Below, one piece after another: positions 7,569 to 38,642 of a stretch of 58,663 bases of DNA. Within the stretch, counting starts at the first letter, position 1. Each line of letters starts with the position of its first letter. The DNA comes from an uncultured Oscillospiraceae bacterium (lineage in GTDB: Bacteria; Bacillota; Clostridia; Oscillospirales; Oscillospiraceae): positions 1-58,663 of the forward strand of contig CANQSJ010000015.1 of assembly GCA_947626495.1 (NCBI GenBank). Direction: 5' to 3'. The notes beneath the pieces are model-generated. The model made no database searches. It worked only from the letters and a program-made list of their open reading frames with translations, and was not told the DNA's origin. The translations under genes were made by a program, and so were the position numbers.

Positions 7569-9599
7569 ATGCCGATACCCGAGATTCTGGCGCCCGCCGG
7601 CGGCGCGGAGCAGCTGCTGGCCGCGGTCCGCTGCGGCGCGGACGCCGTCTATCTGGGCGCCACCGGCTTCAACGCCCGGCAGGGCGCCGCCAACTTCGGC
7701 CCGGAGGCCCTCGCCGGGGCCGTCCGCTACTGCCGCACCCACGGGGTGAAGGTCTATGTGACTGTGAACACCCTGGTGACGGAGGAGGAGCTCCCCGCCC
7801 TGGAGGAGATGGCGGACCAGATCGCCGCCGCCGGGGCCGACGCCGTCATATTGCAGGACATGGCCGCCCTGCGGCTGTTCGCGGCAAAATACCCCTCCCT
7901 GCACCGGGTGGCCTCCACCCAGACCGCCGTCCACAACGCCGACGGCGCCCGGTTTTTGCAGGACGCGGGCTTCGACAGCTTCGTGCTGGCCCGGGAACTG
8001 ACCCTCCGGGAGATGGAGACGATATGCGCCGCCGTGTCCATCCCGGCGGAGGCCTTCGTCCACGGGGCCCACTGCATGAGCCTTTCCGGGGCCTGCACCC
8101 TCTCCGCCATGCTGGGCGGCCGCAGCGGCAACCGGGGCCTGTGCGCCCAGCCCTGCCGGCTGGACTGGCGCTGCGGCGGCGCGGACCACGCGCTGAGCCT
8201 GAAGGACATGAGCCTCATCGGCCACATCCGCGCTCTGGCCGGCGCGGGTGTGACCATGCTGAAGATCGAGGGCCGGATGAAGCGGCCGGAGTACGTGGCC
8301 GCGGCGGTGACCGCCTGCCGGAATGCCCGGGAGGGCAAGCCCTACGACCGGGCCACCCTGGCCGCCGCCTTCTCCCGCAGCGGCTTCACCGACGGCTATC
8401 TCACGGGCAGGCGGGACAAGTCCATGTTCGGCTATCGCACCAAAGAGGACGTGACCGCCGCGGCGGACGCCCTGCCGGGGCTGGCCCGGCTTTATGGGAA
8501 GGAGACGCCCCTGATCCCCGTGGACATGGCCTTTTCCATGGACGCGGACGGCGCCCGCCTCACCGTCTCCGACGGCAGGAACACCGTCACGGCGGAGGGC
8601 CCCGTGCCGGAACCGGCCGTCAACCGGCCCCTGGGGCCGGACCGGGCCCGGGAAAACCTGTCCAAGACCGGCGGGACGCAGTATTATGTTAACTCTTTTC
8701 AGGCCGATATCGCCCCCGGCCTCACCCTCCCCGCCGCGGCCCTGAACGGCATGCGCCGCACGGCGCTGGCGGAGCTGGAGGCCATCCGGGGCGCCGCCCC
8801 GGAGATGGACCCCAGGCCTTATGCCCCGCTGAGCCCCCGGCGGCACTCCCACCCGTCCCCCTCCCCCCTGTGGGCCCGGTTTTATACGCCGGAGCAGATC
8901 GTCCGGCCCGAGGCGCTGGACCGGATCATCCTGCCCATAGAACAGGTGACGCCCGCCCTCATCGACCGGTATGGGGACAAGCTCACGGCGGAGCTGCCGG
9001 CGGCGTGCTTTCCGGAGGCCGCGCCGGCCCTGGAGGCCCGGCTGGAGGCGCTCACCGCCGCCGGCCTGGGGGAGATATGGACGGACAACATCTACGGCAT
9101 CGCCCTGGGCAAGCGGCACGGCCTCACGGTCCGGGGCGGCTTCGGCCTGAATGTCACCAACGCCCAGAGCATAGATTTTTATGTCAACCAAGGACTGGCC
9201 AGTCTGACCCTCTCCTTCGAGCTGCCCATGGCGGCCATCCGGGCCCTGGACGGGCCGGTATCCTGGGGAATAGCGGCCTACGGGCATCTGCCGTTGATGC
9301 GGCTGCGCAACTGCCCGGTCCGGGCCCATCTGGGCTGCGACAAATGCGGCGGGCAGGGCGCGCTCACCGACCGGAAGGGCATCTCCTTCCCGGTGGAGTG
9401 CGGCGAAAAGCGGTATGCCAGCCTTCTCAACAGCGTGCCGCTGCACATCGCGGACCGGGACGACCCCGGTGACTGGCGGCTTTTGTGGTTCACCCGGGAG
9501 AGCCGGGGGCAGTGCGGCGCGGTCGTCGAGGATTTCCGGCTGGGCCGGCCGGCGGACGGCCCCCGCACCGGCGGGCTGTACTATCGTAAACTTTTATGA
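7569..9599 (+). CDS. U32 family peptidase (RlhA/YhbU-like, with C-terminal DUF3656)
   Basis: 676-residue U32 family protein. The N-terminal barrel starts PEILAPAGGAEQLLAAVRCGADAVYLG and carries the U32 signature region around residues 163-200: EAFVHGAHCMSLSGAC and GRSGNRGLCAQPCR. The C-terminal half contains a further Cys pair, LGCDKCGGQG (about 588-597), as in the two-part U32 proteins with DUF3656. Members of this group act in tRNA/rRNA hydroxylation (RlhA, TrhP) or are called collagenases; RNA modification is more likely than proteolysis (inference). ATG at 7569 is selected by AAGGAGG. Two copies of the AT-rich GTTNACATAA motif lie inside the gene (8681-8693 and 9176-9188). Confidence 0.85.
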   Translation: MPIPEILAPAGGAEQLLAAVRCGADAVYLGATGFNARQGAANFGPEALAGAVRYCRTHGVKVYVTVNTLVTEEELPALEEMADQIAAAGADAVILQDMAALRLFAAKYPSLHRVASTQTAVHNADGARFLQDAGFDSFVLARELTLREMETICAAVSIPAEAFVHGAHCMSLSGACTLSAMLGGRSGNRGLCAQPCRLDWRCGGADHALSLKDMSLIGHIRALAGAGVTMLKIEGRMKRPEYVAAAVTACRNAREGKPYDRATLAAAFSRSGFTDGYLTGRRDKSMFGYRTKEDVTAAADALPGLARLYGKETPLIPVDMAFSMDADGARLTVSDGRNTVTAEGPVPEPAVNRPLGPDRARENLSKTGGTQYYVNSFQADIAPGLTLPAAALNGMRRTALAELEAIRGAAPEMDPRPYAPLSPRRHSHPSPSPLWARFYTPEQIVRPEALDRIILPIEQVTPALIDRYGDKLTAELPAACFPEAAPALEARLEALTAAGLGEIWTDNIYGIALGKRHGLTVRGGFGLNVTNAQSIDFYVNQGLASLTLSFELPMAAIRALDGPVSWGIAAYGHLPLMRLRNCPVRAHLGCDKCGGQGALTDRKGISFPVECGEKRYASLLNSVPLHIADRDDPGDWRLLWFTRESRGQCGAVVEDFRLGRPADGPRTGGLYYRKLL

Positions 9600-9603
9600 C
9601 GCC

Positions 9604-9628
9604 GGTACTTTTGCTGCGCAAAAGTACC
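9604..9628. repeat. REP-like perfect hairpin after U32 gene
   Basis: An 11-base stem, GGTACTTTTGC and its complement, around a 3-base loop, followed to about 9700 by a GC-rich stretch with more short inverted repeats (CGCGC..GCGCG). It has no T-run, so it is a poor terminator. The form suggests an intergenic palindromic repeat; the 160-base gap before mntP otherwise holds nothing I recognise. Confidence 0.5.
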
Positions 9629-9760
9629 CGCGCTGCTCGCCGCGCTTCGCGCGGGGCGTCCGATCCCATTCGAGGCGGGGCTCCCGCCCCCCTCAAGCTC
9701 CCCCTTGCATAACGGGCAAGTGCGGGCTTATATATTTTACCGTGCAAAGGAGGTGTGTCC

Positions 9761-10321
9761 GTGAGTCTTTGGGAGCTGTTCATCCTGGCGCTGGGCCTCT
9801 CCATGGACGCCTTCGCGGTGAGCATCTGCAAGGGCCTGGGTCTGGGAAAGATCCGGCCGAAGCACATGGCCCTGGCCGGGGCGTGGTTTGGCGGGTTCCA
9901 GGCGCTGATGCCCCTCATCGGCTATTTCCTGGGGCGGTTTTTCGCGGAGATGATCACCGCCTACGACCACTGGATCGCCTTCGGACTGCTGGCCTTCATC
10001 GGCGGAAAAATGGTCTGGGAGGCGCTGGACCCCAAGGAGGAGAGCGTGGACGGGGCCATGGACGGAAAGACCATGTTCCTTCTGGCGGTGGCCACCAGCA
10101 TCGACGCGCTGGCGGTGGGGGTCACCTTCGCGTTTTTGGAGGTGAACATCCTGCCGGCGGTGCTGTTCATCGGCGCCACCACCTTCCTCTGCTCGGCGGC
10201 GGGGGTGAAGATCGGCAGCGTGTTCGGCGAGCGGTATAAGCAAAAGGCGGAGATCTGCGGCGGGATCGTACTGGTGCTGATCGGTCTAAAAATCCTGCTG
10301 GAGGGCCTGGGCATTTTGTGA
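9761..10321 (+). CDS. mntP: Manganese efflux pump MntP
   Basis: Six-helix membrane exporter of Mn2+ (MntP, formerly DUF204). Two internally similar halves are visible, each with an intramembrane Asp motif: LSMDAFAVSI near residue 16 and TSIDALAVGV near residue 114. Length is 186 residues, normal for the family. The GTG at 9761 is chosen over the GTG at 9755 since AAAGGAGGT ends at 9754. I looked for a yybP-ykoY manganese riboswitch upstream and did not find one. Confidence 0.93.
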   Translation: MSLWELFILALGLSMDAFAVSICKGLGLGKIRPKHMALAGAWFGGFQALMPLIGYFLGRFFAEMITAYDHWIAFGLLAFIGGKMVWEALDPKEESVDGAMDGKTMFLLAVATSIDALAVGVTFAFLEVNILPAVLFIGATTFLCSAAGVKIGSVFGERYKQKAEICGGIVLVLIGLKILLEGLGIL

Positions 10322-10342
10322 GGTTTGCCGGACAGCCGCCCG

Positions 10343-10371
10343 TTGTAAAAAACCGCGAAAATGTGTATAAT
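10343..10371 (+). promoter_or_regulatory. Promoter of glnS
   Basis: TTGTAA (10343-10348), 17 bases, TATAAT (10366-10371), with a TGTG just before the -10 box. It sits in the 85-base gap between mntP and glnS. Confidence 0.75.
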
Positions 10372-10406
10372 CATCCTATATTTTACCAAGGAAGCGAGGC
10401 GTGACC

Positions 10407-12068
10407 ATGGACGAGAACGCGAAAAACTTTATTCTTGACTTCGTGACAGAGGACATCGGCCCGGGAGGGCGTTTCGAGGGCCAGCAGGTGCACACCCGTT
10501 TCCCGCCGGAGCCCAACGGCTACCTGCACATCGGCCACTGCAAGGCCCTGTGCATCGACTTCGGCACGGCGGAGCGCTTCGGCGGCATCACCAACCTGCG
10601 CATGGACGACACCAACCCCGCCAAGGAGGACACCGAGTACGTGGACGCCATCCAGGAGGACATCCACTGGCTGGGGTTCGACTGGGGCGACCGGTTCTTC
10701 TACGGCAGCGACTACTTTGAAAAGACCTACGAGCTGGCGGAGGGCCTGATAAAGAAGGGCCTGGCCTACGTGTGCGAGCTGACCCCGGAGCAGTTCCGGG
10801 AGTATCGCGGCGACGTGGGCACCCCCGCCCGCAGCCCCTGGCGGGACCGGCCCATCGAGGAGAGCCTGGACCTGTTCCACCGGATGCGGGACGGGGAGTT
10901 TCCCGAGGGCAAGTACACCCTGCGGGCCAAGATCGACCTGGCCTCCGGCAACTTCAACATGCGCGACCCGGTGCTCTACCGCATCCGGTACATCGAGCAC
11001 CACCGCCAGGGCACAAAGTGGTGCGTATTCCCCATGTACGACTTTGCCCATCCCATCCAGGACGCCCTGGAGGGCATCACCCACAGCCTGTGCTCCCTGG
11101 AGTATGAGGACCACCGGCCGCTGTACGACTGGGTCATCAACAACGTGGACGTGCCCAGCAAGCCCCGGCAGATCGAGTTTTCCCGTCTGGGCATCAACTA
11201 CACCGTCATGAGCAAGCGCAAGCTCAGAAAGCTGGTGGAGGAGCACTACGTCTCCGGCTGGGACGACCCCCGCATGCCCACCCTGTGCGGCCTGCGCCGG
11301 CGGGGCTACACCCCCACCTCCATCCGTACCTTCATCAGCCGCATCGGCGTGAGCAAGGTCACCAGCACGGTGGAGTACTCCTTCCTGGAGCACTGCCTGC
11401 GGGAGGAGCTGAACCAGTCCGCCCCCCGGCGGATGGCGGTGCTGCGGCCCGTGAAGCTCATCATCACCAACTACCCCGAGGGCCAGACCGAGACCTTCCA
11501 GATCGAGAACAACAACCTGAACGAGTCCGCCGGCACCCGGCCGGTGAGCTTTTCCCGGGAGCTGTGGATCGAATCCGAGGACTTTCTGCCTGCGCCGGTG
11601 CCCAAGTATAAGCGGCTGTACCCCGACGGGCCGGAGTGCCGGCTCAAGGGCGCGTACCTCATCAAATGCACCGGCTACGAGACCGACGCGGACGGCAACG
11701 TCACCGTCTTTGCCGAATATGACCCGGATTCCCGGGGCGGCGACCCCGCCGACGGCCGGAAGGTCAAGGGCGGCACCATCCACTGGGTGAACGCCGCCGA
11801 CTCGGTGGACGCGGAGGTGCGGCTGTACGACAACCTCTTCGCCGACCCGGAGCCGGACGCGGCGGAGAACTTCCTGGACTGCCTGTCCGACCACTCCCTG
11901 GAGGTGCTCACCGGCTGCAAGGCGGAGCGGGCGCTGGAGGATGCCAAAGCCCCCGAGACCTTCCAGTTTTTGCGCACCGGCTACTTTGCCGTGGACAACA
12001 AGGACTCCGCCCCCGGCCATCTGGTGTTCAACCGCTCCGTGGCCCTGAAGGACAGCTTCAAGCCCTGA
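10407..12068 (+). CDS. glnS: Glutamine--tRNA ligase
   Basis: Charges tRNA-Gln with glutamine. Class I synthetase, 553 residues, the usual length. The HIGH box is in PNGYLHIGHCKALC (about 42-45) and the KMSKS-type loop is VMSKRKLRKL (about 268). FPPEPNGYLHIG, DDTNPAKED and a C-terminal anticodon-binding beta-barrel region are all present. GTG at 10401 is an alternative start; ATG at 10407 has GAGG at the better distance. Many Bacillota lack GlnRS and use Glu-tRNA amidation, so this gene marks a lineage that acquired direct charging. Confidence 0.96.
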   Translation: MDENAKNFILDFVTEDIGPGGRFEGQQVHTRFPPEPNGYLHIGHCKALCIDFGTAERFGGITNLRMDDTNPAKEDTEYVDAIQEDIHWLGFDWGDRFFYGSDYFEKTYELAEGLIKKGLAYVCELTPEQFREYRGDVGTPARSPWRDRPIEESLDLFHRMRDGEFPEGKYTLRAKIDLASGNFNMRDPVLYRIRYIEHHRQGTKWCVFPMYDFAHPIQDALEGITHSLCSLEYEDHRPLYDWVINNVDVPSKPRQIEFSRLGINYTVMSKRKLRKLVEEHYVSGWDDPRMPTLCGLRRRGYTPTSIRTFISRIGVSKVTSTVEYSFLEHCLREELNQSAPRRMAVLRPVKLIITNYPEGQTETFQIENNNLNESAGTRPVSFSRELWIESEDFLPAPVPKYKRLYPDGPECRLKGAYLIKCTGYETDADGNVTVFAEYDPDSRGGDPADGRKVKGGTIHWVNAADSVDAEVRLYDNLFADPEPDAAENFLDCLSDHSLEVLTGCKAERALEDAKAPETFQFLRTGYFAVDNKDSAPGHLVFNRSVALKDSFKP

Positions 12069-12112
12069 GAAACCGTCTGCCCGCGCCGTTTTGGCGGCGG
12101 GAAACCGGATAC

Positions 12113-12151
12113 AATCGCTCTGTTGAAACCCCGTCAGCAGAGCGATTTTTA
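12113..12151 (+). terminator. Intrinsic terminator after glnS
   Basis: Ten-base stem AATCGCTCTG / CAGAGCGATT with a 15-base loop, followed by TTTT. Confidence 0.75.
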
Positions 12152-12176
12152 ATTCCACGGGAAAGGAGACGGAAAA

Positions 12177-12959
12177 ATGACGGCATTTGAAACCACCTTT
12201 GACAGCGCCGCTTTGGATTACGACAAAAGCCGTCCCGCATACCCGGCAGATATCTACGAGGATATACGGCGCTATAAACCGATCCCCCCCGGCAGCAGCG
12301 TGCTGGAGATCGGAGTGGGGACGGGAAAGGCATCCCGGCCCATCTTGGATACCCGCTGCCATTGGACCGGGCTCGAGCCGGGAGAGCGGCTGGCGGCGCT
12401 GGCGCGATGTCGGTATCAGGCTTATGAAAGCTTCTCCTTGCTGAACCGGACCTTCCAGGATTTCCACGGCGACGACGGATCGTTTGACCTCATTTACGCG
12501 GCAACGGCCTTTCACTGGATCCCGGAGGATTACGGGTACCGGCGGGTCTTTGACCTGCTGAAACCCGGCGGCGCGTTCGCCCGCTTTGCCTACCATGCCG
12601 GCCCTGATCGGGGACGCGGGGCATTGGAGGCGGAAATACGGGCGCTCTACCGCAAATATATGGGCACGGAGAGCCCTCCCGCCGCCTTTGGCGAGGAGGA
12701 CGCGCGCAAGTTGGCCGAAAAAGCGCTGGCATACGGTTTTGTCGACATCCGGCATTCGCTCTATCACCGGACAAAAGATTTTACGGCGGATGCATATATG
12801 GCGCTGCTGCGGACATACCCCGACCATAGAAAAATGGAGCCGTCGGACAGAAGAGCGCTCTTTGACGGCATCCACTGTGCGATACGCCGTCACGGCGGGA
12901 TCATGACCGTGTACTATACAATGGATCTGGAGCTGGCGCGAAAGCCGTCTGTCGGTTGA
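12177..12959 (+). CDS. Class I SAM-dependent methyltransferase
   Basis: Predicted 260-residue cytosolic methyltransferase; the substrate is unknown. The SAM-binding motif I is VLEIGVGTGKASRPI (about residues 41-55), the acidic motif II is WTGLEPGERL, and a later LIYAATAFHWIPED matches the small-molecule type (Methyltransf_11/25). ATG at 12177 follows AAAGGAGACGG. Codon choice is slightly less GC-biased than in its neighbours and it lies alone between two terminators, so recent transfer is possible. Confidence 0.88.
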   Translation: MTAFETTFDSAALDYDKSRPAYPADIYEDIRRYKPIPPGSSVLEIGVGTGKASRPILDTRCHWTGLEPGERLAALARCRYQAYESFSLLNRTFQDFHGDDGSFDLIYAATAFHWIPEDYGYRRVFDLLKPGGAFARFAYHAGPDRGRGALEAEIRALYRKYMGTESPPAAFGEEDARKLAEKALAYGFVDIRHSLYHRTKDFTADAYMALLRTYPDHRKMEPSDRRALFDGIHCAIRRHGGIMTVYYTMDLELARKPSVG

Positions 12960-13020
12960 CAGAGAGAAGATCCGTCGCCTTTCTCCATGGCCTCCTTATC
13001 CCCCCGGCGAAAGCGCAGGC

Positions 13021-13052
13021 GGCGCAGCCAAAAGGCTGCGCCGCCGTTTTCT
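13021..13052 (+). terminator. Intrinsic terminator after methyltransferase
   Basis: GGCGCAGCC, AAAA loop, GGCTGCGCC, then GCCGTTTTCTTTT. It lies between two convergent genes; the T-rich tail is on the plus-strand side only. Confidence 0.7.
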
Positions 13053-13062
13053 TTTGTCCGCC

Positions 13063-13668
13063 TCAGGCGCCAAATATGGCCCCCACGGCCGCCGTCAGGC
13101 CCCGGACCATGTCCGCCAGGGGCATGCTGGGCTGCCCCGGCTTGTCCCCGGTCTGCTCCGGGACGAAGGGCACATGCATAAAGCCGGCCCACACGCCGGG
13201 ATACCGCTCCGCCAGCAGGTGCAGCACGGCATACATCAAGTGGTTGCACACGAAGGTGCCCGCGGTGTTGGACACCTCCGCCGCCACGCCGGCTGCGCGG
13301 ATGGCCTCCGCCATGGCCTTCACCGGCAGCGTGGCGAAATAGGCCGCCGGCCCTCCGGGGACCGCGGGCCGGTCCACGGGCTGCTCCCCGGCATTGTCCG
13401 GTATGCGGGCGTCATCCACGTTGACGGCCACCCGCTCCGGGGTGATCGCCGCCCGGCCGCCCGCCTGGCCCAGACACAGCACCGCGTCCGGCGCCTCCCG
13501 CTCAATGGCCTCCGCCACCGGAGCCAGACACCCGGCGAAGGTCACCGGCACCGCCAGCTTCACGATCTCAACGTCCCCCACCCGGTCCGGCATCCGGCCC
13601 ATGGCCTCCTCAGCCGGGTTCACAGCCTCGCCCCCGAAGGGCTCAAAGGCCGTCAGCAGCAGCTTCAT
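13063..13668 (-). CDS. pcp: Pyroglutamyl-peptidase I
   Basis: Removes N-terminal pyroglutamate from peptides in the cytosol (peptidase family C15). The start MKLLLTAFEPFGGEAVNPAE is the family signature, and the catalytic set is visible: Glu in ITPERVAVNVDDARIPDN, Cys in SNTAGTFVCNHLMY (about 141) and His in GFMHVPFVPEQ. 201 residues, normal length. ATG at 13668 is preceded by GGAGGCGGCGGG, which decides against the longer frame starting at 13722. Confidence 0.95.
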   Translation of the reverse strand: MKLLLTAFEPFGGEAVNPAEEAMGRMPDRVGDVEIVKLAVPVTFAGCLAPVAEAIEREAPDAVLCLGQAGGRAAITPERVAVNVDDARIPDNAGEQPVDRPAVPGGPAAYFATLPVKAMAEAIRAAGVAAEVSNTAGTFVCNHLMYAVLHLLAERYPGVWAGFMHVPFVPEQTGDKPGQPSMPLADMVRGLTAAVGAIFGA

Positions 13669-13715
13669 CCCGCCGCCTCCTCTCTCGCCGGACAGTATAT
13701 CACGCCGCCCGGCAG

Positions 13716-13744: not shown

Positions 13745-13750
13745 GGCGGT

Positions 13751-14296: not shown

Positions 14297-14403
14297 CGGC
14301 CCGTTTCCCAATTCCAGATGTTGGGATTTACATAACGCTTTTCCCTTGTGGAAGTTGGTCAAAATAACTGTAAAAACCGGAGAAACATGTAAGAATATGA
14401 CAA

Positions 14404-16427: not shown

Positions 16428-16440
16428 TAAGCATCGCGGC

Positions 16441-26429: not shown

Positions 26430-27662
26430 ATGGACATCGCCATCATCGGCGGCGGCGCGTCCGGCCTGGCGGCGGCTCTGGCCGCCCGGGAGAGCCTGGC
26501 AAACGCCGTCACCGTCTATGAGCGCCAGAACCGGGTGGGACGAAAGCTCCTGGCCACGGGAAACGGCCGCTGCAACCTGACCAACCGGGGCGCGTCGCCG
26601 GAGAATTACCACGGCCAGGACCCGGCCTTCGCCGGGCCGGCGCTGTACCGCTTCGGGCCGGAAAAGACGCTGGAGTGGTTCCGGAGCCTGGGTCTGGTCA
26701 CGCGCACGGAGCCCTCCGGCCGGGTCTATCCCCTGTCGGACACCGCGGGGAGTGTGGTGGATGTGCTGCGCCTGGCCCTGGAGGCCCGGGGCGGATCCAT
26801 CCAGTGCGGCGCGCCCATCGCCCGGGCGGAAAAGCGGGGGGACGCCTTTCTCCTCACCGGGCCGCTGGGCGAGCAGTTCACCTGCGAGCGGCTCATCGTG
26901 GCCTGCGGCGGGGCCGCCGGGGCCCGGGTGGGCGGCGTCCGCTCCGGCTATGACATCCTCCGCTCCTTCGGCCACGGTTGCACGCAGCTGCGGCCGTCCC
27001 TGGTGCAGCTGAAGACGGACAACACCTGGACCCGGGCCATGAAGGGCGTGCGCACCCAGGCGGCCGTCGTCCTGGAGCGCGGCGGCCAGACCCTGGCCAG
27101 CGCCTCCGGCGAGGTCCAGTTCACCGACTACGGCCTCACCGGCCCGGCCGTCTATGACATCTCCCGCGCCGCCTCCCTCCAACAGGAGGGGGCCACGGTG
27201 TGCCTGCGGCTGCTGCCGGAGCTGGAGAAAGTTGACATAATTCAATACATGGAAAACAAAAGAAACAGTTTTCCCGATCATAAAGCGGAAAATCTGTTGA
27301 GCGGCGTTTTACATAATTCTATCGCCCGCACGGTGCTCCGCCGGACCCAGATCCCCCTGGAGGCACGGCTGTGGGCGCTGTCCGACGCAGCGCTGGACCA
27401 GATCGCGGACACCCTGGAGCGGTTCGAGTTCCCCCTCATGGGCACCCTGGGCTTTGAGGACGCCCAGGTCACCTCCGGCGGCACGGACACCGCCGGCTTC
27501 GATCCGGAGACGCTGGAAAGCCGGCTGGTGCCGGGGCTTTACGCCTGCGGCGAGGTGCTGGACGTGGACGGGGACTGCGGCGGCTACAACCTGCAGTGGG
27601 CTTGGTCCAGCGGGCGTCTGGCGGGCCTGGCCGCCGGCGGACTGCTGGAGGAGCTGGCATGA
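26430..27662 (+). CDS. BaiN/RdsA-family flavoprotein
   Basis: 410-residue NAD(P)/FAD-dependent oxidoreductase of the HI0933-like family (BaiN/RdsA). FAD-binding GGGASGLAAALAA (7-19), VGRKLLATGNGRCNLTN, and near the end GEVLDVDGDCGGYNLQWAWSSG, which closes the FAD site. BaiN acts in bile-acid 7-dehydroxylation in some gut Clostridia, but most members have unknown substrates, so no pathway can be assigned. An AT-rich island at about 27225-27320, with two copies of the GTTNACATAAT motif, interrupts otherwise GC-rich coding sequence. Stop overlaps the next gene (ATGA). Confidence 0.88.
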   Translation: MDIAIIGGGASGLAAALAARESLANAVTVYERQNRVGRKLLATGNGRCNLTNRGASPENYHGQDPAFAGPALYRFGPEKTLEWFRSLGLVTRTEPSGRVYPLSDTAGSVVDVLRLALEARGGSIQCGAPIARAEKRGDAFLLTGPLGEQFTCERLIVACGGAAGARVGGVRSGYDILRSFGHGCTQLRPSLVQLKTDNTWTRAMKGVRTQAAVVLERGGQTLASASGEVQFTDYGLTGPAVYDISRAASLQQEGATVCLRLLPELEKVDIIQYMENKRNSFPDHKAENLLSGVLHNSIARTVLRRTQIPLEARLWALSDAALDQIADTLERFEFPLMGTLGFEDAQVTSGGTDTAGFDPETLESRLVPGLYACGEVLDVDGDCGGYNLQWAWSSGRLAGLAAGGLLEELA

Positions 27663-29224
27663 TCCGGCTCCGGAACGTGGCCCTGGGATTGGACGAGAGC
27701 GAGCAGCTGCTGGCCGCCCGGGCGGAGGAAAAGCTGAAAGCGCCGGTGTCCGCCGTGACCGTCGCCCGCAGGGCCGTGGACGCCCGGCGCAAGTCGGACG
27801 TGCACTTTATCTACACCCTGGACGTATCCCTCCGGGACGAGGCCTCCGCCCTGGCCCGGTGCCGGGACGCCTCCCCCGCCCCGAAAAACGACTACGCCCC
27901 TCCCCTGCCCCCACAGCTGCCGGCGGAGCGGCCGGTGGTGGTGGGCTTCGGCCCGGCGGGCATGTTCGCGGCGCTGGCCCTGGCCATGGCGGGGCTGCGG
28001 CCCCTGGTGCTGGAGCGGGGCGAGGACGCCGCCGCCCGCACCGCCAAGGTGGAGCGGCTGCGCCGGGAGGGCGTTCTCGACCCGGAGAGCAACATCCAGT
28101 TCGGCGAGGGCGGCGCCGGAGCGTTTTCCGACGGCAAGCTGACCACCGGCGTGAAGGACCGGCGCATCCCCTGGGTTCTGGACCAGCTGGTCCGGGCAGG
28201 CGCGCCAGTTGACATAACTTTTGAAGCCAAGCCCCACATCGGCACCGACCTTCTCCCGGGCGTATGCGCGGGCATCCGCCGGCGCATCGAATCGCTGGGC
28301 GGCGAGGTGCGCTTCTCCACCCGCCTGGAGGCGCTGGAGACGTCGGGCGGAAGGCTGACCGCCGCCGTGACCGCCGCAGGCGAGCGGATCCCCTGTTCGG
28401 CCCTCATCCTGGCCTGCGGCCACAGCGCCCGGGACACGTTTGATATGTTATGTAAACTTATCCCCATGGCCCCCAAGCCCTTCGCCATGGGCGTGCGCAT
28501 CGAACATCTGCAGCGGGACACGGACAGGGCCCAGTACGGCCCCTTCGCCGGCCACCCTGCCCTCCCTCCCGCGGACTATGCCCTGGCGGCGGAGCTGCCC
28601 GGCGGCCGCCGGTGCTATACCTTCTGCATGTGCCCCGGGGGCGAGGTGGTCCCCGCCGCCAGCGAGCCTGGGATGGTCTGTACCAACGGCGCCAGCCCTT
28701 ATAGAAGAAATTATGTTAACTCCAACGCCGCCCTTCTGGCGGCCCTCGCCCCGGAGGATTTCCCCTATCCGGGCGTGCTGGGCGGGATGCGCTGGCAGCG
28801 GGAGCTGGAGCGGCGGGCCTTCGAGGCCGCCGGCGGCGGCTACCGGGCCCCGGCGCAGACCGTGGGCAGTTTTCTCCACGGCGGGCCCTCTGTCTTCGGG
28901 CGGGTGGTCCCCTCCTACGCGCCGGGCGTGGCGGCAGTTGATTTACATAATATTCTCCCCTCGGTTATCACGGGCACCGTCGCCGGGGCGCTGCCCCTTT
29001 TCGAACGGAAGCTGCGCGGCTTCGCAGACCCGGAGGCGGTGCTCACCGGTCCGGAGACCCGCTCCTCCTCCCCCGTACGGATGCTGCGCACGGACACCCT
29101 CCAATCCCCCGCCCTGGCGGGACTGTTCCCCTGCGGGGAAGGGGCCGGCTGGGCCGGCGGGATCATGTCCGCCGCCGTGGACGGTCTTCGCTGCGCCGAG
29201 GCGCTGATCGCCTCCCTGGGCTGA
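27659..29224 (+). CDS. FAD-dependent dehydrogenase, COG2509 type
   Basis: 521-residue flavoprotein. A small N-terminal domain (about 1-85) precedes the FAD Rossmann fold with GFGPAGMFAALALA (about 95-108); FGEGGAGAFSDGKLTT and PSVITGTVAGALP, and the C-terminal LFPCGEGAGWAGGIMSAAVDGLR are the family marks. Function unknown; it is often encoded near cofactor or tRNA-modification genes. The start at 27659 overlaps the upstream flavoprotein's stop. Four copies of the AT-rich GTTNACATAAT motif occur in this gene. Confidence 0.88.
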   Translation: MIRLRNVALGLDESEQLLAARAEEKLKAPVSAVTVARRAVDARRKSDVHFIYTLDVSLRDEASALARCRDASPAPKNDYAPPLPPQLPAERPVVVGFGPAGMFAALALAMAGLRPLVLERGEDAAARTAKVERLRREGVLDPESNIQFGEGGAGAFSDGKLTTGVKDRRIPWVLDQLVRAGAPVDITFEAKPHIGTDLLPGVCAGIRRRIESLGGEVRFSTRLEALETSGGRLTAAVTAAGERIPCSALILACGHSARDTFDMLCKLIPMAPKPFAMGVRIEHLQRDTDRAQYGPFAGHPALPPADYALAAELPGGRRCYTFCMCPGGEVVPAASEPGMVCTNGASPYRRNYVNSNAALLAALAPEDFPYPGVLGGMRWQRELERRAFEAAGGGYRAPAQTVGSFLHGGPSVFGRVVPSYAPGVAAVDLHNILPSVITGTVAGALPLFERKLRGFADPEAVLTGPETRSSSPVRMLRTDTLQSPALAGLFPCGEGAGWAGGIMSAAVDGLRCAEALIASLG

Positions 29225-32453: not shown

Positions 32454-32481
32454 AAATTATTTTGCCGGCGCCCGACCGCCC

Positions 32482-32510: not shown

Positions 32511-32562
32511 ATACCAAAATATATCGAAGTGATAAGCCTGCGTCTGGACAAGGAGGTGCCCT

Positions 32563-32781
32563 ATGAACTTCAAAGACTCATACTTCAAAAACTCACCGCT
32601 GCTCCATTTTATCACCGGGACCTTATGGTTTGTAGTAGCAGCCGTAATCGCATACAAAATGCGGTCATTTCCAGGCTTCGTTTTCCGGCTGCCTATCCTC
32701 ACCTGCATCGTAGGGATCGGCTATTACGCTCGGGGCATTTATTTGATAGCAAAAAACCGGCAGCGGAATGAAAGCCATTAA
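32563..32781 (+). CDS. Small AT-rich two-helix membrane protein, unknown
   Basis: 72 residues, MNFKDSYFKNSPLLHFITGTLW, with two hydrophobic segments (about 14-30 and 38-60) and a polar C-terminus. Base composition is clearly lower in GC than the flanking genes. It has its own promoter, a strong AAGGAGGTG site and a downstream hairpin, so it is likely expressed despite standing alone between rpsO and typA. Family not recognised; acquisition by transfer is plausible. Confidence 0.65.
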   Translation: MNFKDSYFKNSPLLHFITGTLWFVVAAVIAYKMRSFPGFVFRLPILTCIVGIGYYARGIYLIAKNRQRNESH

Positions 32782-32825
32782 ACGCGGCAGGCAAATCCCC
32801 GTTCACCGCGCTGAGAGCAAATGAT

Positions 32826-32854
32826 CCGCCTCCCCCGGAACCCGGGGGAGGCGG
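32826..32854. terminator. Terminator between small membrane protein and typA
   Basis: Thirteen-base GC-rich stem CCGCCTCCCCCGG and complement with a 3-base loop; the plus-strand tail TCTTGTCTTATTT is moderately T-rich, the minus side less so. Confidence 0.65.
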
Positions 32855-32861
32855 TCTTGTC

Positions 32862-34673
32862 TTATTTCCGGAACTGGTTCTTCATCCGCTTTTCGTGGTT
32901 GAGAATGGCCTTGCGCAGGCGCAGGTGCTCCGGCGTGACCTCCAGCAGCTCGTCGTCCGCCATGAACTCCAGGCACTGCTCCAGACTCATCTGCTTGGGC
33001 GGGATGAGCCGCAGCGCCTCGTCGGAGCCGGAGGCCCGGGTGTTGGTCAGGTGCTTGGAGCGGCACACGTTCACCACGATGTCCTCCTTCTTGGGGCTCT
33101 CCCCCACCACCATGCCGGCGTACACCATGGTGCCCGGCGTGATGAACAGCGCGCCCCGGTCCTGGGCGTTCCACAATCCGTATGCCACCGCCTCGCCGGT
33201 CTCGAAGGCGATGAGAGAGCCGGTGTTGCGCCGCTTCACCTCCCCCTTCACGGGGGCGTAGGAGTCGAATACCGAGGCCATAATGCCCTCGCCCCGGGTA
33301 TCGGTGAGAAACTCGCTGCGGTAGCCGAAAAGGCCACGGGTGGGCACCAGAAATTCCAGCTTCATCCGCTCGCCCACCGGCGTCATCTGGATGAACTCGC
33401 CCTTTCTCTGGCCCAGCTTCTCCATCACCGAGCCCATGCTCTCCGCCGGCACATCCAGCACCACCCGCTCCATGGGCTCGCACTGCTTGCCGTCGATCTC
33501 CCTATACAGCACCCGGGCCGGGGACACGGCGAACTCATACCCCTCCCGGCGCATGGTCTCGATGAGGATGGACAGGTGCATCTCCCCCCGGCCGGCCACG
33601 TTGAACGCGTCGGTGGTATCCGTCTCCGTCACCCGCAGGGACACGTCCTTCAATGTCTCCTGCTCCAGGCGCTGGCGGATGTTCCGGCTGGTGACGTACT
33701 TGCCCTCCCGGCCGGCGAAGGGGCTGTCGTTGACGGAGAAGGTCATCTCGATGGTGGGGGCGGAGATCTTCACGAAGGGCAGCGGCTCCGGCGCCTCGGG
33801 GGCGCAGATGGTGTCGCCGATGGTCACGTCGCCGATACCGCTCATAGCGATGATGTTGCCCGCCTCCGACGCCGTCACCGGCGCCCGGCCCAGGGGCTCG
33901 AACTCATACATGCTCACCGCCTTGGCGTGGCGCACCGGCCGCTCGTTGTGGTAATCGCACACCACGATCTCCTGGTTCTGGGTGACGCGGCCCCGCTCCA
34001 CCCGGCCGATGGCGATCCGGCCCACGTATTCGTTGTAATCCAGGGAGCTGACCAGCATCTGGAAGGGCTCGTCCAGCCGTCTGTCCGGGGCGGGAATATA
34101 GTCGACGATGGCCCGGAAGAGGGGCTCCAGGTCCGTGCCCGGGGTGTCCGGGCTGACGGAGCAGGTGCCCTGGCGGGCGGAGGCGAAAAGCATGGGGCTG
34201 TCCAGCTGCTCGTCGGTGCAGCCCAGGTCCATGAGCAGCTCCAGCACCTCGTCGATGACCTCATAGACCCGCTGGTCCGGCCGGTCCACCTTGTTGACCA
34301 CCACGATGACCTTGTGGCCCAGCTGCAGGGCGTGCTCCAGCACGAACCGGGTCTGGGGCATGGGCCCCTCGGCCGCGTCCACCAGCAGCAGCACGCCGTT
34401 GACCATCTTCAGGATCCGCTCCACCTCGCCGCCGAAGTCGGCGTGGCCCGGGGTGTCCACGATGTTGATCTTCACGTCCCCGTAGTGGATGGCGGTGTTC
34501 TTGGCCAGGATGGTGATGCCCCGCTCCCGCTCCAGGTCGCCGGAGTCCATGATCCGCTCCTGGACCTGCTGGTTCTGGCGGAAGGCGCCGGACTGGCGGA
34601 GCATGGCGTCCACCAGGGTGGTCTTGCCGTGGTCCACGTGGGCGATGATGGCGATGTTTCTAAGCTCTTGCAT
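32862..34673 (-). CDS. typA: Translational GTPase TypA/BipA
   Basis: Ribosome-associated GTPase needed under stress and for 50S assembly. 603 residues, usual length. G1 [16 protein letters not shown] (9-24), G2 in [10 protein letters not shown]3 [13 protein letters not shown]4 NKVDR, then domain II, EF-G-like domains III and V ([21 protein letters not shown]) and the TypA-specific C-terminal part ending VRSKHL-like [21 protein letters not shown]. Own promoter upstream. Confidence 0.97.
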
Positions 34674-34716
34674 GATCGTTGTTCACTCTTTTCCTTGGTA
34701 TGCACACAGTTTTGTT

Positions 34717-34745
34717 ATTTTATCACGCCCCGGGCCCGATTGCAA
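34717..34745 (-). promoter_or_regulatory. Promoter of typA
   Basis: On the minus strand TTGCAA (34745-34740), 17 bases, TAAAAT (34722-34717). Confidence 0.7.
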
Positions 34746-34795
34746 CCGCCTTGCGCCGAAAAAGATCGCCGCCCGGCGCTCTTCCCCCTGACAGC

Positions 34796-34837
34796 GGACC
34801 CAAAGGGGCCGCCCTGCAGGGCGGCCCCTTTGGGTCC
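34796..34837. repeat. 42-base perfect palindrome
   Basis: Perfectly self-complementary from GGACCCAAAGGGG to CCCCTTTGGGTCC, centred on CTGCAG. It sits just after the stop of the surface protein gene and upstream of the typA promoter. RNA from the surface protein gene would form a hairpin of about 19 base pairs, but no T-run follows on that strand. Confidence 0.8.
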
Positions 34838-34838
34838 G

Positions 34839-36914
34839 TCAGCCCACGCGATACCGCTTTCGCGTCAGCAGCCACAGCAGTCCCCCTCCGCTCGCCACGC
34901 CCAGCGACGCAGTCGCCAGATAGGCCCCCGCTCTCCCCTTCCGGGCCGGCGGGGCCGGCGTCTCATCCCCGGCGATCTCCGCCTCCTCCGGAGGCGGCGC
35001 GGCGGCAGGTTCCGGGCTGGGCGCGGCCGTCGGTTCGGCGGTGGGCGCGGCGGTGGGCTCCGGAGACGCCTCCGCCGCCGGCATCACAGGCAGCGCGGCA
35101 GCTCCTCCCGTCCCGGCAGAGGAGCCGGGTCCCGGCCCCCGATCGGGTGCGGGCGGCGGTGCGGCCGTGGGCGCGGGACTGGGCGCAGCGGTGGCCGCGG
35201 GCGTCGGCTCCGGGCTGGCCGTGGGCGTTGGCTCCGGCGTGGCTGTGGGTGTGGGCTCCGGTGTCGCGGTGGGCGTTGGCTCCGGCGTAGCCACCGGCTC
35301 GCACACCGTCGCCGCCTGGGCCGTCAGGCCCGAATAATCCCCGTACATCCCGCCGCCCCAGGGGAAGGAGCGCAGGATGGTCCACCGCTCCATCGCCCGG
35401 TCATATTTCAGCGAAAACTCCGCGGTAAGACTGCCCGCGGCGCTGTGGACCTGGCGGGTGGCATCGGTATAGGAGTCGATATAGGACGACAGCTCCACCG
35501 TGAGGCGGGTGTACCCGTCCCCGTTCTCATCCCCGCTCACCGGGCTGAAGCTATACGTCCCCTCCCGCAGGGGATAGATCCAGCTCTCATGGCCCGAGTC
35601 CCCGGTGGTGCAGCTCACCTGCACCCCCTGGATAAACCGCCGGAGCGTCTCCGGCCCGGGCAGTTCGATGACTTCCGGCGTGGGCTCTGGCGTCGCAGTC
35701 GGTGTGGGCTCCGGCGTCTCCGTGGGTGTCGGTTCCGGCGTCTCCGTGGGTGTCGGCTCCGGCGTCTCCGTGGGTGTCGGTTCCGGCGTCTCGGTGGGCG
35801 TCGGTTCCGGCGTCTCCGTGGGTGTCGGTTTCGGTGTCTCCGTGGGTGTCGGTTTCGGTGTCTCCGTGGGTGTCGGCTCCGGTGTCTCTGTGGGCACGGG
35901 TTCCGGCGTCTCCGTGGGCACAGGCTCCGGCGTCTCCGTGGGTGTCGGTTCCGGCGTCTCCGTGGGTGTCGGCTCCGGCGTCTCCGTGGGCGTCGGCTCT
36001 GGCGTCTCCGTGGGCACAGGCTCCGGCGTCGCGGTGGGTGTGGGTTTCGGCGTCTCCGTGGGTGTCGGTTCAGGCGTCTCGGTGGGCACAGGCTCCGGCG
36101 TCGCGGTGGGTGTCGGCTCCGGCGTCTCGGTCGGCGTAGGCTCTGGCGTCTCCGTGGGCGTAGGCTCTGGCGTCTCCGTGGGCACGGGCTCCGGGGTCTC
36201 CGCCGTCGGATCCACCGTCCAAAAGGCATACACCGTTATCGTCTGCCCGCGGGGGCAACTGGCGGTGATCACCTTGTACTCGATGAGCGGGAACGTGCTC
36301 CAGCACTTGAAGATATACCCCACCCGCTGGGGGATGTGCTCTTTATCCAGTATGAACGTATGAATCATCTCGGTCCCGCTGGCCACCACCGGGTTCGGCT
36401 CCGGCATCCCAGTCACCGCTTCGCCGTTGGCGTTGGCGTCATAGACCAGCGTGTAGTCGGCTCCCGACTCCTGCGCCGGGGTATAGACGACCGTCGTCCG
36501 GTATACGTTCCCCGCCTGGACGACCAGATAGCTGTCCTGCAGCTTTTCGGTATAGCCCTCTACCGTCGCGTCCAAAAGGCCAAGGCTCGCCTGGCAGACC
36601 TTTCCCAGAGGCACAGGGATGGTCCACCGAAAAACGGCCACGCTGTCCTGCTGCTGACAGACGGCATTGTACTTATAGAGGCTATGGCTGGCATAGCCGC
36701 CCTCATAAATGAGCGTGCAGGCCAGGGTCATCCAGGGCAGAAACGTCGGTTCGGAAATCGTGCCCGCCTCCAGACCCTCCACCGCCAGCTCCAGCGTCAC
36801 CTCTCCCATGTCCTCCGACGCCTGGGCGGTCCCCGCATCCCGCAGGCCGGCAGTCAGACCGTTCAGCGTTACCAGCAGCCCCAGCAGCACGGCAGCGACC
36901 CTTCTCGTGAGCAT
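34839..36914 (-). CDS. Surface protein with Pro-Glu-Thr repeats and C-terminal membrane anchor
   Basis: 691-residue secreted protein. Signal peptide MLTRRVAAVLLGLLVTLNGLTA; an N-terminal region ending in an InlB-B-like (Flg_new) repeat (YTLVYDANANGE ... YIFKCWST, about 155-235); about 22 TPEPTPTE units (about 238-415); a globular stretch (415-535); a second Pro-rich tract with four more units; and a C-terminal hydrophobic helix followed by RKRYRVG. There is no LPXTG motif, so it is anchored by the membrane helix. ATG at 36914 follows GGAGGGAAGGGTC. Confidence 0.85.
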   Translation of the reverse strand: MLTRRVAAVLLGLLVTLNGLTAGLRDAGTAQASEDMGEVTLELAVEGLEAGTISEPTFLPWMTLACTLIYEGGYASHSLYKYNAVCQQQDSVAVFRWTIPVPLGKVCQASLGLLDATVEGYTEKLQDSYLVVQAGNVYRTTVVYTPAQESGADYTLVYDANANGEAVTGMPEPNPVVASGTEMIHTFILDKEHIPQRVGYIFKCWSTFPLIEYKVITASCPRGQTITVYAFWTVDPTAETPEPVPTETPEPTPTETPEPTPTETPEPTPTATPEPVPTETPEPTPTETPKPTPTATPEPVPTETPEPTPTETPEPTPTETPEPTPTETPEPVPTETPEPVPTETPEPTPTETPKPTPTETPKPTPTETPEPTPTETPEPTPTETPEPTPTETPEPTPTETPEPTPTATPEPTPEVIELPGPETLRRFIQGVQVSCTTGDSGHESWIYPLREGTYSFSPVSGDENGDGYTRLTVELSSYIDSYTDATRQVHSAAGSLTAEFSLKYDRAMERWTILRSFPWGGGMYGDYSGLTAQAATVCEPVATPEPTPTATPEPTPTATPEPTPTASPEPTPAATAAPSPAPTAAPPPAPDRGPGPGSSAGTGGAAALPVMPAAEASPEPTAAPTAEPTAAPSPEPAAAPPPEEAEIAGDETPAPPARKGRAGAYLATASLGVASGGGLLWLLTRKRYRVG
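35670..36205 (-). repeat. 24-bp tandem repeats encoding TPEP(T/V)PTE
   Basis: About 22 imperfect 24-base units, each coding for eight residues, with Val/Thr and Glu/Lys/Ala variants. Another four units lie around 35190-35295. Such tracts often change copy number by slippage. Confidence 0.85.
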
Positions 36915-36974
36915 GACCCTTCCCTCCAAAATTATACCGCTCCATTTAATGCCCCGCCATTCTATAACGAAAAG

Positions 36975-37002
36975 TATATATCAAACATCATATAACTGTC
37001 AA
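36975..37002 (-). promoter_or_regulatory. Promoter of the Pro-Glu-Thr surface protein gene
   Basis: On the minus strand TTGACA (37002-36997), 16 bases, TATATA (36980-36975) in an AT-rich gap, about 60 bases before ATG. The rest of the 220-base gap to 37137 holds only this and the opposing promoter at 37091. Confidence 0.6.
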
Positions 37003-37090
37003 TATATTCCTGTAAATTTCCGGAAATTCTCTCCCCTCCAGTATGGGGAAAAACGCGGCCGCCCCGGGGCCCCGGAGCCGGCGGCGGCCT

Positions 37091-37120
37091 TTGTCACCCG
37101 CCGGTCCAGGCGCATACAAT
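37091..37120 (+). promoter_or_regulatory. Promoter of the ferritin-like gene
   Basis: TTGTCA (37091-37096), 18 bases, TACAAT (37115-37120), with GGGAGGGG before the ATG at 37138. Confidence 0.6.
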
Positions 37121-37137
37121 GCCTGGGAGGGGATCGC

Positions 37138-37638
37138 ATGGACGAGAGCATCCGCGAGAGTCTGGCGGGATTCGACGCCGTGTGGCAGCGGGTCGCCGGG
37201 CTGGACAGCACACCGGAGAGGACGCCGGACCGGCAGCGCGCCGATCCGCTGGAGGACCATCTCGCGCACTTCATACACGAGGAGACCTGCGCCGCGGTCT
37301 GGGCCGCCGCCCTGGCGCAGCTGTTCGGCGGGGAGGCCCGGACCGTGCTGCTGCGCCAGGCCGCCGACGCCCGGCGGCATCTGAAGCGGCTGCGGGCGGA
37401 GTATTTCATCGCGGCCGGCGTGCCGGCGGGCGGCAACCAGGACTGTCGGGACATATCCGGAAAGCTGGCCAGTCTGCGGACGGTGTATCTGCAGGCCCGG
37501 GACCGTGCCGCGGATTATGAGGAGCAGGCGGAGCGGGCTCCCTCGCCGGAGCTGCGGGAGATGTTCGCCGCCTTTGCCGGGGACGAGGCGCGCCACGCCC
37601 GGGAGGCCCGCCGGCTCATCCTCGCCAGCTTCCAATAG
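37138..37638 (+). CDS. Ferritin-like/rubrerythrin-like helical protein
   Basis: 166 residues, almost all helix. HFIHEETCAAVWAAALAQLF, ADARRHLKRLRAEYF and FAGDEARHAREARRLI look like three of the four helices of a ferritin-like bundle; DEARHA is the usual ExxH helix, whereas the second helix reads DARRH rather than EExxH, so one iron ligand may be changed. No rubredoxin domain. A role in iron or peroxide handling is a reasonable but weak inference. ATG at 37138 is set by GGGAGGGG. Confidence 0.65.
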   Translation: MDESIRESLAGFDAVWQRVAGLDSTPERTPDRQRADPLEDHLAHFIHEETCAAVWAAALAQLFGGEARTVLLRQAADARRHLKRLRAEYFIAAGVPAGGNQDCRDISGKLASLRTVYLQARDRAADYEEQAERAPSPELREMFAAFAGDEARHAREARRLILASFQ

Positions 37639-37662
37639 CCGGCGGCAGCGGCCCTCCGGCAG

Positions 37663-37691
37663 TTGACACCCACCGCCGGAGGGCCTATACT
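37663..37691 (+). promoter_or_regulatory. Promoter of the alpha/beta hydrolase gene
   Basis: TTGACA (37663-37668), 17 bases, TATACT (37686-37691); leader of about 15 bases with GGGAGGTG before ATG. Confidence 0.8.
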
Positions 37692-37712
37692 GTGGGGCGG
37701 GAGGTGACGGCC

Positions 37713-38642
37713 ATGGCATGGATCCTGGCGCTGGCCGGCGCGGCGGCGCTGGCACTGGCGCTGACATATATCGCCTACCGGGTGCCCTTTTATAACCCCC
37801 TGCCCCACCGGGAGGATATCTTCGACATCCCCGCCGGAGACCAGTATCAGACCCGGCGGGAGGAGATGGGCGCCCTCATTCGGGAGATGGACGCCATCCC
37901 CTGCGATGAAGTTAACATAATTTCTTACGACGGGACACCCCTCGCCGCCCGCTACTACCACGTGGCCGACGGCGCTCCCCTGCAGATCGAGTTCCACGGC
38001 TGGCACGGCAGCGCCATACGGGACTTCTGCGGCGGCAACAAGCTGGCCCGCCAGATGGGCATGAACACCCTGGTGGTGGACCAGCGCGCCCACGGAAAGA
38101 GCGGCGGCACCACCATCACCTTCGGCCTGCGGGAGCGGTATGACTGCCTGGCCTGGTGTCGGTACGCCGTGGAGCGCTTTCCCGGCGCGACCATCACCCT
38201 GGCAGGGGTGTCCATGGGCGCGTCCACGGTGCTCATGGCGGCGGGGCTGGATCTGCCGGAGGAGGTGACAGGGATCATCGCCGATTCGCCCTACTCCTCA
38301 CCGGTTGACATAATTTCAAAAGTCTGCCGGGATGTGCACCTGCCCCCGGGGCTGATGCTCCCCTTTATCAAGCTGGGAGCGCGGCTGTTCGGCCGGTTCG
38401 ATCTGGCCGAGACCACCGCCGCCCGGGAAGTCGCAAAGGCGAAGGTGCCCATCCTCATCCTCCACGGGGAGGACGACCGGTTCGTCCCCTGCGACATGAG
38501 CCGGGAGATCTACGACGCCTGCCCGGGACCGAGGATGCGCGTCACCTTCCCCGGCGCGGGCCACGGCATCAGCTATGTCATCGACCCGGAGGGCTACCGC
38601 CGGGCGGTGGTCCGGTTCTGGGAGCAGTCGGTCCGGCACTGA
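37713..38642 (+). CDS. Membrane-anchored alpha/beta hydrolase
   Basis: 309-residue serine hydrolase. One N-terminal hydrophobic helix (MAWILALAGAAALALALTYIAY) tethers it, then an alpha/beta-hydrolase fold with nucleophile GVSMGAS (Ser about 167), Asp in LHGEDDRFVP and His in GAGHGISY (about 283). It resembles the YqkD-type hydrolases; substrate unknown. Two AT-rich GTTNACATAATTT motifs are embedded at VNIIS (37911) and VDIIS (38304), using rare ATA/ATT codons. Confidence 0.87.
   Translation: MAWILALAGAAALALALTYIAYRVPFYNPLPHREDIFDIPAGDQYQTRREEMGALIREMDAIPCDEVNIISYDGTPLAARYYHVADGAPLQIEFHGWHGSAIRDFCGGNKLARQMGMNTLVVDQRAHGKSGGTTITFGLRERYDCLAWCRYAVERFPGATITLAGVSMGASTVLMAAGLDLPEEVTGIIADSPYSSPVDIISKVCRDVHLPPGLMLPFIKLGARLFGRFDLAETTAAREVAKAKVPILILHGEDDRFVPCDMSREIYDACPGPRMRVTFPGAGHGISYVIDPEGYRRAVVRFWEQSVRH

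Follow-up and report, generated by a model that had tools for sequence, protein, structure and literature searches.

The 58,663-nucleotide stretch of DNA analysed here (the window) contains eleven copies of a short motif that lies far above expectation, equals the XerD half of dif, and is kept across species in the two genes that were testable. On balance, this sequence evidence suggests that the motif probably represents isolated XerD-binding sites, most likely SMC-unloading sites such as those of Bacillus subtilis.

The word studied has ten letters, and its asymmetric consensus is GTTDACATAAT. The eleven XerD-arm-like sites were all found at the places and on the strands given in the preliminary description. 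Two of them, 8684..8692 (-, TTAACATAA) and 9179..9187 (-, TTGACATAA), lie in a peptidase U32 family gene with a DUF3656 match (7506..9599, +), both in frame YVN, and the site at 14327..14335 (+, TTTACATAA) is intergenic. The HI0933-like flavoprotein gene (aminoacetone oxidase family, TIGR00275; 26430..27662, +) carries sites at 27232..27240 (+, frame VDII) and 27308..27316 (+, frame LHN). Four sites occupy the gene of an FAD-dependent protein with a PF21688 C-terminal domain (27596..29224, +), namely 28209..28217 (+, frame VDI), 28448..28456 (-, frame LCK), 28711..28719 (-, frame YVN), and 28942..28950 (+, frame LHN). An alpha/beta hydrolase gene (37692..38642, +) contains the remaining two, 37912..37920 (+, frame VNII) and 38305..38313 (+, frame VDII). 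By our own ORF choice, ten sites therefore fall within four genes, as described previously.

TTNACATAA occurred 11 times in the window, compared with a mean of 0.10 in 100 dinucleotide shuffles (largest value, 2), in agreement with the earlier estimate of less than one expected site. The preliminary description had also named a genome-wide frequency equal to a codon-matched null as grounds for rejection; within the window, the motif exceeded such a null: the 10 intragenic copies compared with a mean of 0.77 (maximum 3) in 1000 within-gene synonymous-codon shuffles and with a mean of 0.36 (maximum 3) when synonymous codons were shuffled across genes, the gene set being our own ORF choice with a list edited by hand. 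Peptide or codon bias was thereby ruled out for the window. The window was also denser in the motif than the genome as a whole (11 copies vs 2.06 expected at the own-genome rate, Poisson P about 1e-5 before any correction for picking this one out of 62 contigs).

Among 27 aligned orthologue rows of the FAD gene, the motif was kept in 26 at site 28448, 24 at 28711, 16 at 28942, and 11 at 28209, while the flanks drifted. Of the gene's 1593 9-mers, the one at 28448 ranked within the top 0.1% for exact identity; site 28711 was kept with A, C, or T at the free position, and rows lacking the motif at 28942 mostly showed GC-rich codons there. In the 21 rows of the HI0933-like flavoprotein (G010 counted twice), sites 27232 and 27308 were both kept in 12, one was kept in 5 (in one case shifted in place), and none in 4. 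Frames LCK and LHN were thus kept in orthologues besides YVN and V-x-I. These results indicate that, in the two flavoprotein genes, the motif is held by selection on DNA; the earlier claim of selection on DNA rather than protein is borne out by the several frames, the two orientations, and the FAD-gene sites that outlast their flanks.

The same comparison bears on 6 of the 10 intragenic sites with respect to loss at orthologous positions, which the preliminary description had regarded as evidence against the motif: the sites were largely kept, but unevenly, 28209 being present in only 11 of the 27 rows. In genome G002, the two flavoprotein genes lacked all six sites (27232-28942). Relocation of the genes as the cause was unsupported, since gene order was kept over window positions 13.7-29.2 kb. 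A partial FAD-gene orthologue in G027 (L076), not counted among the 27 rows, had no site; a close orthologue was not obtained in five of the 35 genus genomes, and the hydrolase gene had no orthologue in the loci searched. For the intergenic site 14327, a copy was present at about the syntenic place in G002 (C1:156316, by arithmetic) and absent from that of G010.

The window's own genome (2.14 Mb) contained 75 copies vs 15 of the reversed control, and the motif exceeded this control in all 35 genomes of the genus, by 2.0- to 7.4-fold. Other genera of the family showed little or no excess (101 vs 95 in G035 and 185 vs 134 in G036), and a further one, G086, had 1 copy vs 8 for the control. To our knowledge, XerD is near-universal, so the small or absent excess in these genera counts against the XerD reading. 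In 73 of the 75 copies (those on contigs C40 and C59 were left out), the free position was T in 35, G in 25, A in 13, and never C; the preceding base was G in 50 and the following base was T in 41. A rough ORF call placed 36 of the 73 between genes and 37 within genes, 25 of the latter antisense. Frames YVN and V-x-I accounted for 30 of the 37 genic copies, a bias that stop-codon avoidance, which differs between frames, would explain.

The sites were spread over many contigs. Neighbouring pairs less than 500 bp apart numbered 19, 17, and 13 in three genomes, compared with 1.3-1.7 expected, and 43 of these 49 pairs had the same orientation. Dense local arrays were located in metH, in ispE, and upstream of xer genes, and related genomes contained same-orientation tandem arrays with sites 14 bp apart, a spacing that matches no Xer geometry known to us. 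With tandem arrays excluded, G002 and G010 had six identical neighbour-site spacings in common vs 0.15 expected. A spacing of 495 bp that recurs in the window and in G002/G010 was considered as a sign of orthology but, as no match to the U32 gene of the window was present in the G002 and G010 contigs, judged to be chance.

In reverse complement the motif reads TTATGT-H-AAC, which is the XerD half of dif, and its longer form ATTATGT-H-AAC(T) equals the arm. In B. subtilis, the XerD arm is TTATGTAAACT. The motif also matches the XerD arms TTATGTTAACC and TTATGTTAATC printed for two epsilon-proteobacteria (PMC2731167). According to that study, dif positions 23 and 24 are variable and A25 is highly conserved (PMC2731167); by our own numbering, the free letter of the motif is position 24. 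Position 23, although variable there, takes a single letter in the searched motif, which counts against the XerD reading. No conserved XerC half adjoined the four FAD-gene sites in the 27 rows, and intact dif sites were rejected, the best match among the best 25 rows being 20 of 28 letters (19 for a window site) against three dif sequences. A complete dif was not identified, so the arm comparison covered those of other bacteria; the retrieved portions of PMC3025954 and PMC5357621 print no Firmicutes dif. A candidate upstream of xerD (GTTACTTTTAA-N6-TTATGT), considered because it was recurrent, had an exact XerD-arm core in only 15 of 30 loci, with one more locus too short to tell and at least three unrecognisable.

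At a threshold of E 1e-80, xerD was detected in every genus genome except G005 and G016 (33 of 35), and 31 of these exceeded the family cut-off. Residues 9-281 of the G000 XerD query aligned with E. coli XerD (1a0p). In all 30 xerD loci returned, TTATGTNAA was located 54-62 bp upstream of the matched coding start, pointing away from xerD, and the upstream region held further conserved repeats. G301, which belongs to another genus of the family, had six copies upstream of radA and an XerC-like gene; another three, including a pair spaced by 14 bp, lay upstream of the gene that comes before xerD. A promoter -35 box (TTGACA) was rejected in view of the genic and antisense copies counted above and of the xerD-side copy, which reads away. 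Of the roles guessed at in the preliminary description, that of a segregation-protein site is the best fit, given the identity with the XerD arm of dif and the copies upstream of xer genes. An RNA pause signal is unlikely, since copies run both with and against the gene.

If the sites unload SMC, they should cluster at the terminus, but no such clustering was found in G120 or G141, and this is the main weakness of our reading. Only 2 of 29 GTTDACATAA sites in G120 lay in the 400 kb with the GC-skew switch vs 5.8 expected, and 12 of 54 sites in G141 lay in the 400 kb vs about 9 expected, an enrichment that is at most weak. The test is a weak one, because both genomes come from another family and part of their sites may be peptide-driven; in G141, 7 of the 12 copies were GTTGACATAA, a sequence that would encode V-D-I in one of its frames. 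GC-skew mapping of the terminus within the genus was abandoned because the skew was too weak and the contigs were too short, and a clear skew switch was absent from the site-rich contigs of G301. The short contigs carrying dnaA had one copy of the motif in G010 and none in G000 or G002, a result of little weight.

XerD-specific binding sites (XDS) of B. subtilis were reportedly described by Karaboja et al. in 2021; such sites are of the XerD-arm type and functional without an XerC partner. They are cited in passages of PMC10945525, PMC12322038, and PMC9733580, and the relevant passage of PMC10945525 states that XerD at its own binding site unloads SMC and that several sites are perhaps needed. 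The sites described here resemble XDS in the XerD-arm match, the lack of a conserved XerC arm at four sites, the presence of xerD, and the possibility that several act together. They differ in that many are intragenic and kept across species, in the 14-bp same-orientation tandems of relatives and the copies upstream of xer genes, and in being predicted from sequence rather than from ChIP-seq; the weak test in G120 and G141 gave no clear terminus location. Like dif, they have the XerD arm with the free letter on a variable position; dif, in contrast, is a 28 bp site (XerC arm, 6-bp centre, and XerD arm) present once per chromosome. Both parS and matS are palindromic, unlike the asymmetric motif. 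The proposed sites would be comparable to the matS/MatP system of E. coli, in which dispersed sites counter an SMC-type complex (PMC10945525, in the passage retrieved), but sequence and protein are unrelated.

From these comparisons, we infer a scheme with XerD as the binder, SMC unloading, and autoregulation. XerD would bind the predicted half-site alone, or on a same-orientation 14-bp tandem, without recombination, and selection would retain its sites even within genes. Bound XerD may then capture and unload SMC complexes travelling along the chromosome, and several nearby sites would raise the chance of capture. The copy just downstream of the putative xerD promoter could let XerD control its own synthesis.

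The sites may instead bind XerD, or XerC/XerD, not for SMC unloading at the terminus but for another use, such as dispersed anchoring, looping, or XerD titration along the whole chromosome. We consider this possible but clearly less probable: the lack of terminus enrichment in G120 and G141, the many contigs with sites, and the dense arrays in metH, in ispE, and upstream of xer genes agree with it, but the retrieved parts of the literature searched show no precedent and the chromosome map of the genus is too fragmentary for judging it. It is rather unlikely that the motif is recognised by a different DNA-binding protein, such as a regulator or a nucleoid protein, that also controls the xer genes. 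The 14-bp direct repeats do look like operator arrays, the rough ORF call places about half of the copies between genes, and further repeats are conserved upstream of xerD; however, the arm match down to the variable position and the nearness to both xer genes would then have to be chance, and intragenic operators in several frames are unusual.

An uptake sequence, a restriction or methylation target, or another genome-wide sequence label would account for intragenic copies in both orientations that are conserved between species in the tested genes. Uptake sequences, however, usually number hundreds to thousands of copies across a genome, and the low number here (75 in 2.14 Mb), together with the tight local clustering, mostly in one orientation, makes the uptake sequence suggested previously, and any such label, very improbable. 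Chance or codon and peptide bias is the least credible explanation: most genic copies do share frames YVN and V-x-I, but the null gave 0.77 against 10 in the window, the free letter varies at the kept site 28711, and the LCK and LHN frames are kept too.

If XerD does bind, sites for its second role would be readable from sequence and traceable through evolution, in bacteria for which we found no experiment, and whether XerD acts at the terminus only or over the whole chromosome would become testable. The fixed intragenic sites of this gut bacterium and its relatives suggest a hidden layer of chromosome-handling signals running through the protein code, which, if real, would be under selection strong enough to impose rare codons. 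More tentatively, a genus-wide network of half-sites in coding sequence may mean that XerD organises the chromosome beyond the terminus, binds 14-bp tandems, and controls its own genes. A second over-represented word in the window, CTGAAAAA, was set aside, its contexts being, by eye, ordinary Leu-Lys codons.

The 11 sites of the preliminary description, copies of a XerD-arm-like word of the GTTDACATAA type, were all present in the window, whereas dinucleotide shuffles gave an expectation of 0.10. Ten copies were genic, compared with a mean of 0.77 (maximum 3) in 1000 trials of within-gene synonymous-codon shuffling and 0.36 for across-gene shuffling, the codon-shuffle null using 49 hand-edited gene calls of the window. 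The preliminary observation was confirmed. The genome-wide count proposed at that time yielded 75 copies in the source genome (2.14 Mb, 62 contigs) versus 15 for a reversed control, in which the motif pattern is read backwards; the codon-shuffled null was confined to the window. At the genome rate, 2.06 copies were expected in the window and 11 were found (P ~1e-5, not corrected for window choice), indicating, together with the genome-wide excess, that the window is a local cluster as well as part of that excess. Another word, CTGAAAAA, was strongly over-represented in the window (13 versus 0.47, first-order model), and by eye its contexts looked like ordinary Leu-Lys codons.

Flanks and positions were counted for all copies but those on contigs C40 and C59, 73 of 75 in total. 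The variable base N was T in 35, G in 25, A in 13, and C in none, with G before the motif in 50 and T after it in 41; the motif is therefore GTTDACATAAT, or ATTATGTHAAC on the opposite strand. According to a rough ORF call, 36 of the 73 copies lay between genes; of the other 37, which were genic, 12 read in the sense and 25 in the antisense orientation. The Y-V-N or V-x-I frames, which cause the least stop-codon conflict, accounted for 30 of the 37 genic copies, and the remaining frames were also used. Neighbour pairs less than 500 bp apart numbered 19 in the source genome and 17 and 13 in G002 and G010, two genomes of the same genus, compared with 1.3, 1.7, and 1.6 under random placement (maxima 5, 7, and 7 in 2000 trials). 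The orientation was the same in 43 of these 49 pairs, although pairs that belong to a single array are not independent. A spacing of exactly 14 bp was seen in nine pairs, of which G002 had five and G010 four; the source genome had none. On reading the sequence, two places of G002 each had a 14-bp-period array flanked by hairpin-like sequences. Apparent CRISPR repeats and cas1 and cas2 (Pfam matches) lay near a 14-bp-period motif array of this genome (C2:5500-11000).

The preliminary description proposed selection on DNA or RNA, with retention of the motif at orthologous sites as a check. For six sites in two genes, this was borne out in part: sites 28448 and 28711 were mostly kept, whereas site 28209 was kept in a minority of rows and G002 had none of the six, yet retained the gene order of window 13.7-29.2 kb. 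The FAD-dependent protein gene (27596-29224) was recovered at 30 loci including the window, with no close orthologue obtained from 5 of the 35 genus genomes. Its alignment comprised 27 rows, in which protein identity to the window's copy was 72-86% and L068, L074, and L075 were incomplete; three short fragments stayed outside (L076, 2681 bases, no site; L077, one site; L078, two sites). Sites 28448, 28711, 28942, and 28209 were kept in 26, 24, 16, and 11 of the 27 rows, respectively, while the flanking sequence drifted. By exact identity, site 28448 was nearly invariant (top 0.1% of the gene's 9-mers) and the other three were unexceptional (ranks 0.18, 0.09, and 0.22), 28711 because N varies there (A, C, T). 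Rows without a site usually had several positions changed together, toward GC-rich codons. In the neighbouring HI0933-type flavoprotein gene (26430-27662; 21 rows, G010 twice), both sites were present in 12 rows, one in 5 (one shifted), and none in 4. Orthologues of the U32 gene (7506-9599) and the hydrolase gene (37692-38642) were absent from the loci searched, and the conservation counts refer to the FAD and flavoprotein sites. Among neighbouring-site pairs chosen by hand, G002 and G010 had six spacings in common (69, 164, 180, 284, 291, and 495) versus 0.15 expected; the source genome shared 291 and 387 with G002 and 231, 263, and 291 with G010. The occurrence of the 495 spacing in the source genome as well was taken as chance. 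The motif is a real DNA-level signal, kept where tested.

According to Carnoy and Roten (PMC2731167), dif of two epsilon-proteobacteria has the XerD half TTATGTTAACC or TTATGTTAATC; in Proteobacteria, the XerC half is less conserved than the XerD half, and A at position 25 is highly conserved, whereas positions 23 and 24 vary more. The motif matches the XerD arm of dif, the printed arms being epsilon-proteobacterial, as TTATGT-H-AAC, the free letter falling on position 24 by our numbering. Position 23, variable in Proteobacteria according to that paper, was in contrast fixed in the pattern as searched. No conserved XerC half was next to the four FAD-gene sites, and a search for the genus's own dif found none. 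Judging from the sequence, the motif copies are most likely XerD half-sites.

Copies were also detected near xer genes. At E 1e-80, 33 of the 35 genus genomes yielded xerD, 31 of them above the cut-off, and in 30/30 loci returned the matched coding start was preceded at 54-62 bp by TTATGTNAA. By reading of the alignment, this copy lies a short way downstream of a promoter-like pair of conserved TTGATTAC-type and TATA-type boxes. In 15 of the 30 loci, a second copy in the opposite orientation occurred near -150, one locus being too short to judge. Most of these loci had a conserved noncoding block 60-330 bp before the match, with repeated GTTAC/GTAAC elements that partly form inverted repeats. 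In G301, from another genus of the family, radA precedes a XerC-like gene scoring below both Xer model cut-offs. Six copies stood immediately upstream of radA, one further copy lay inside each of these two genes, and the gene preceding xerD had another three on its upstream side, two of them at a 14-bp distance. This genome also had four copies within ~120 bp in ispE and seven in metH, four of them in ~85 bp (4525-4607 of locus L280, on C8). The latter stretch falls between two matched domains, implying that the protein part there is spelled by the DNA motif. The source genome had thirteen XerD-family matches in 2.1 Mb (two possibly being parts of a single gene) on C2, C4, C5, C8, C13, C20, and C23, among them two groups of integrase-type genes whose scores were almost the same; some had the motif close by (C5:41007, C8:46498, C13:6044).

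In B. subtilis, SMC is reported to be unloaded by XerD at its binding site (PMC10945525; also PMC12322038 and PMC9733580), and the first of these remarks that several sites are perhaps needed if the loop-extruding complex takes large steps, which would suit local motif arrays. We infer from this that the motif copies may be XerD-binding sites of the same kind. What the data show is that they are in excess, are conserved in both genes that were tested, match the XerD arm, have no conserved XerC half at four sites, and lie at xer genes. XerD would then bind the motif copies, might regulate its own gene, and could unload SMC at these sites. In the open-licence literature searched, no listed title, abstract opening, or passage pointed to XerD sites within genes, to XerD arrays in tandem, or to this motif in Oscillospiraceae. 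In the genus, the terminus could not be placed, as GC skew was too weak and contigs too short. A 400-kb stretch was taken from each of two contigs with motif excess from another family, the skew switching near 240 kb in G120 and near 140 kb in G141. There was no clear enrichment in the stretch of either G120 (2 of 29 sites versus 5.8 expected) or G141 (12 of 54 versus about 9); 100-260 kb of G141 held 7 sites versus about 3.6 expected. Seven of the 12 G141 copies were GTTGACATAA and may be peptide-driven, so the test is weak.

All 35 genus genomes exceeded their own reversed controls, 2.0- to 7.4-fold; the named relatives are MAGs of uncultured Oscillospiraceae, many from Lapin or Red_deer bins. 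Among other genera of the family, little excess was detected in G035 (101 versus 95) and G036 (185 versus 134), none in G086 (1 versus 8), and G301 had 74 GTTDACATAA versus 2. An excess was present in only a minority of the 293 genomes sampled across the class, implying that use of such sites would be patchy if the XerD-site reading is right. GTTDACATAA was in strong excess in G043, from another family of the order (110 versus 8), and in G334, from elsewhere in the class (138 versus 16).
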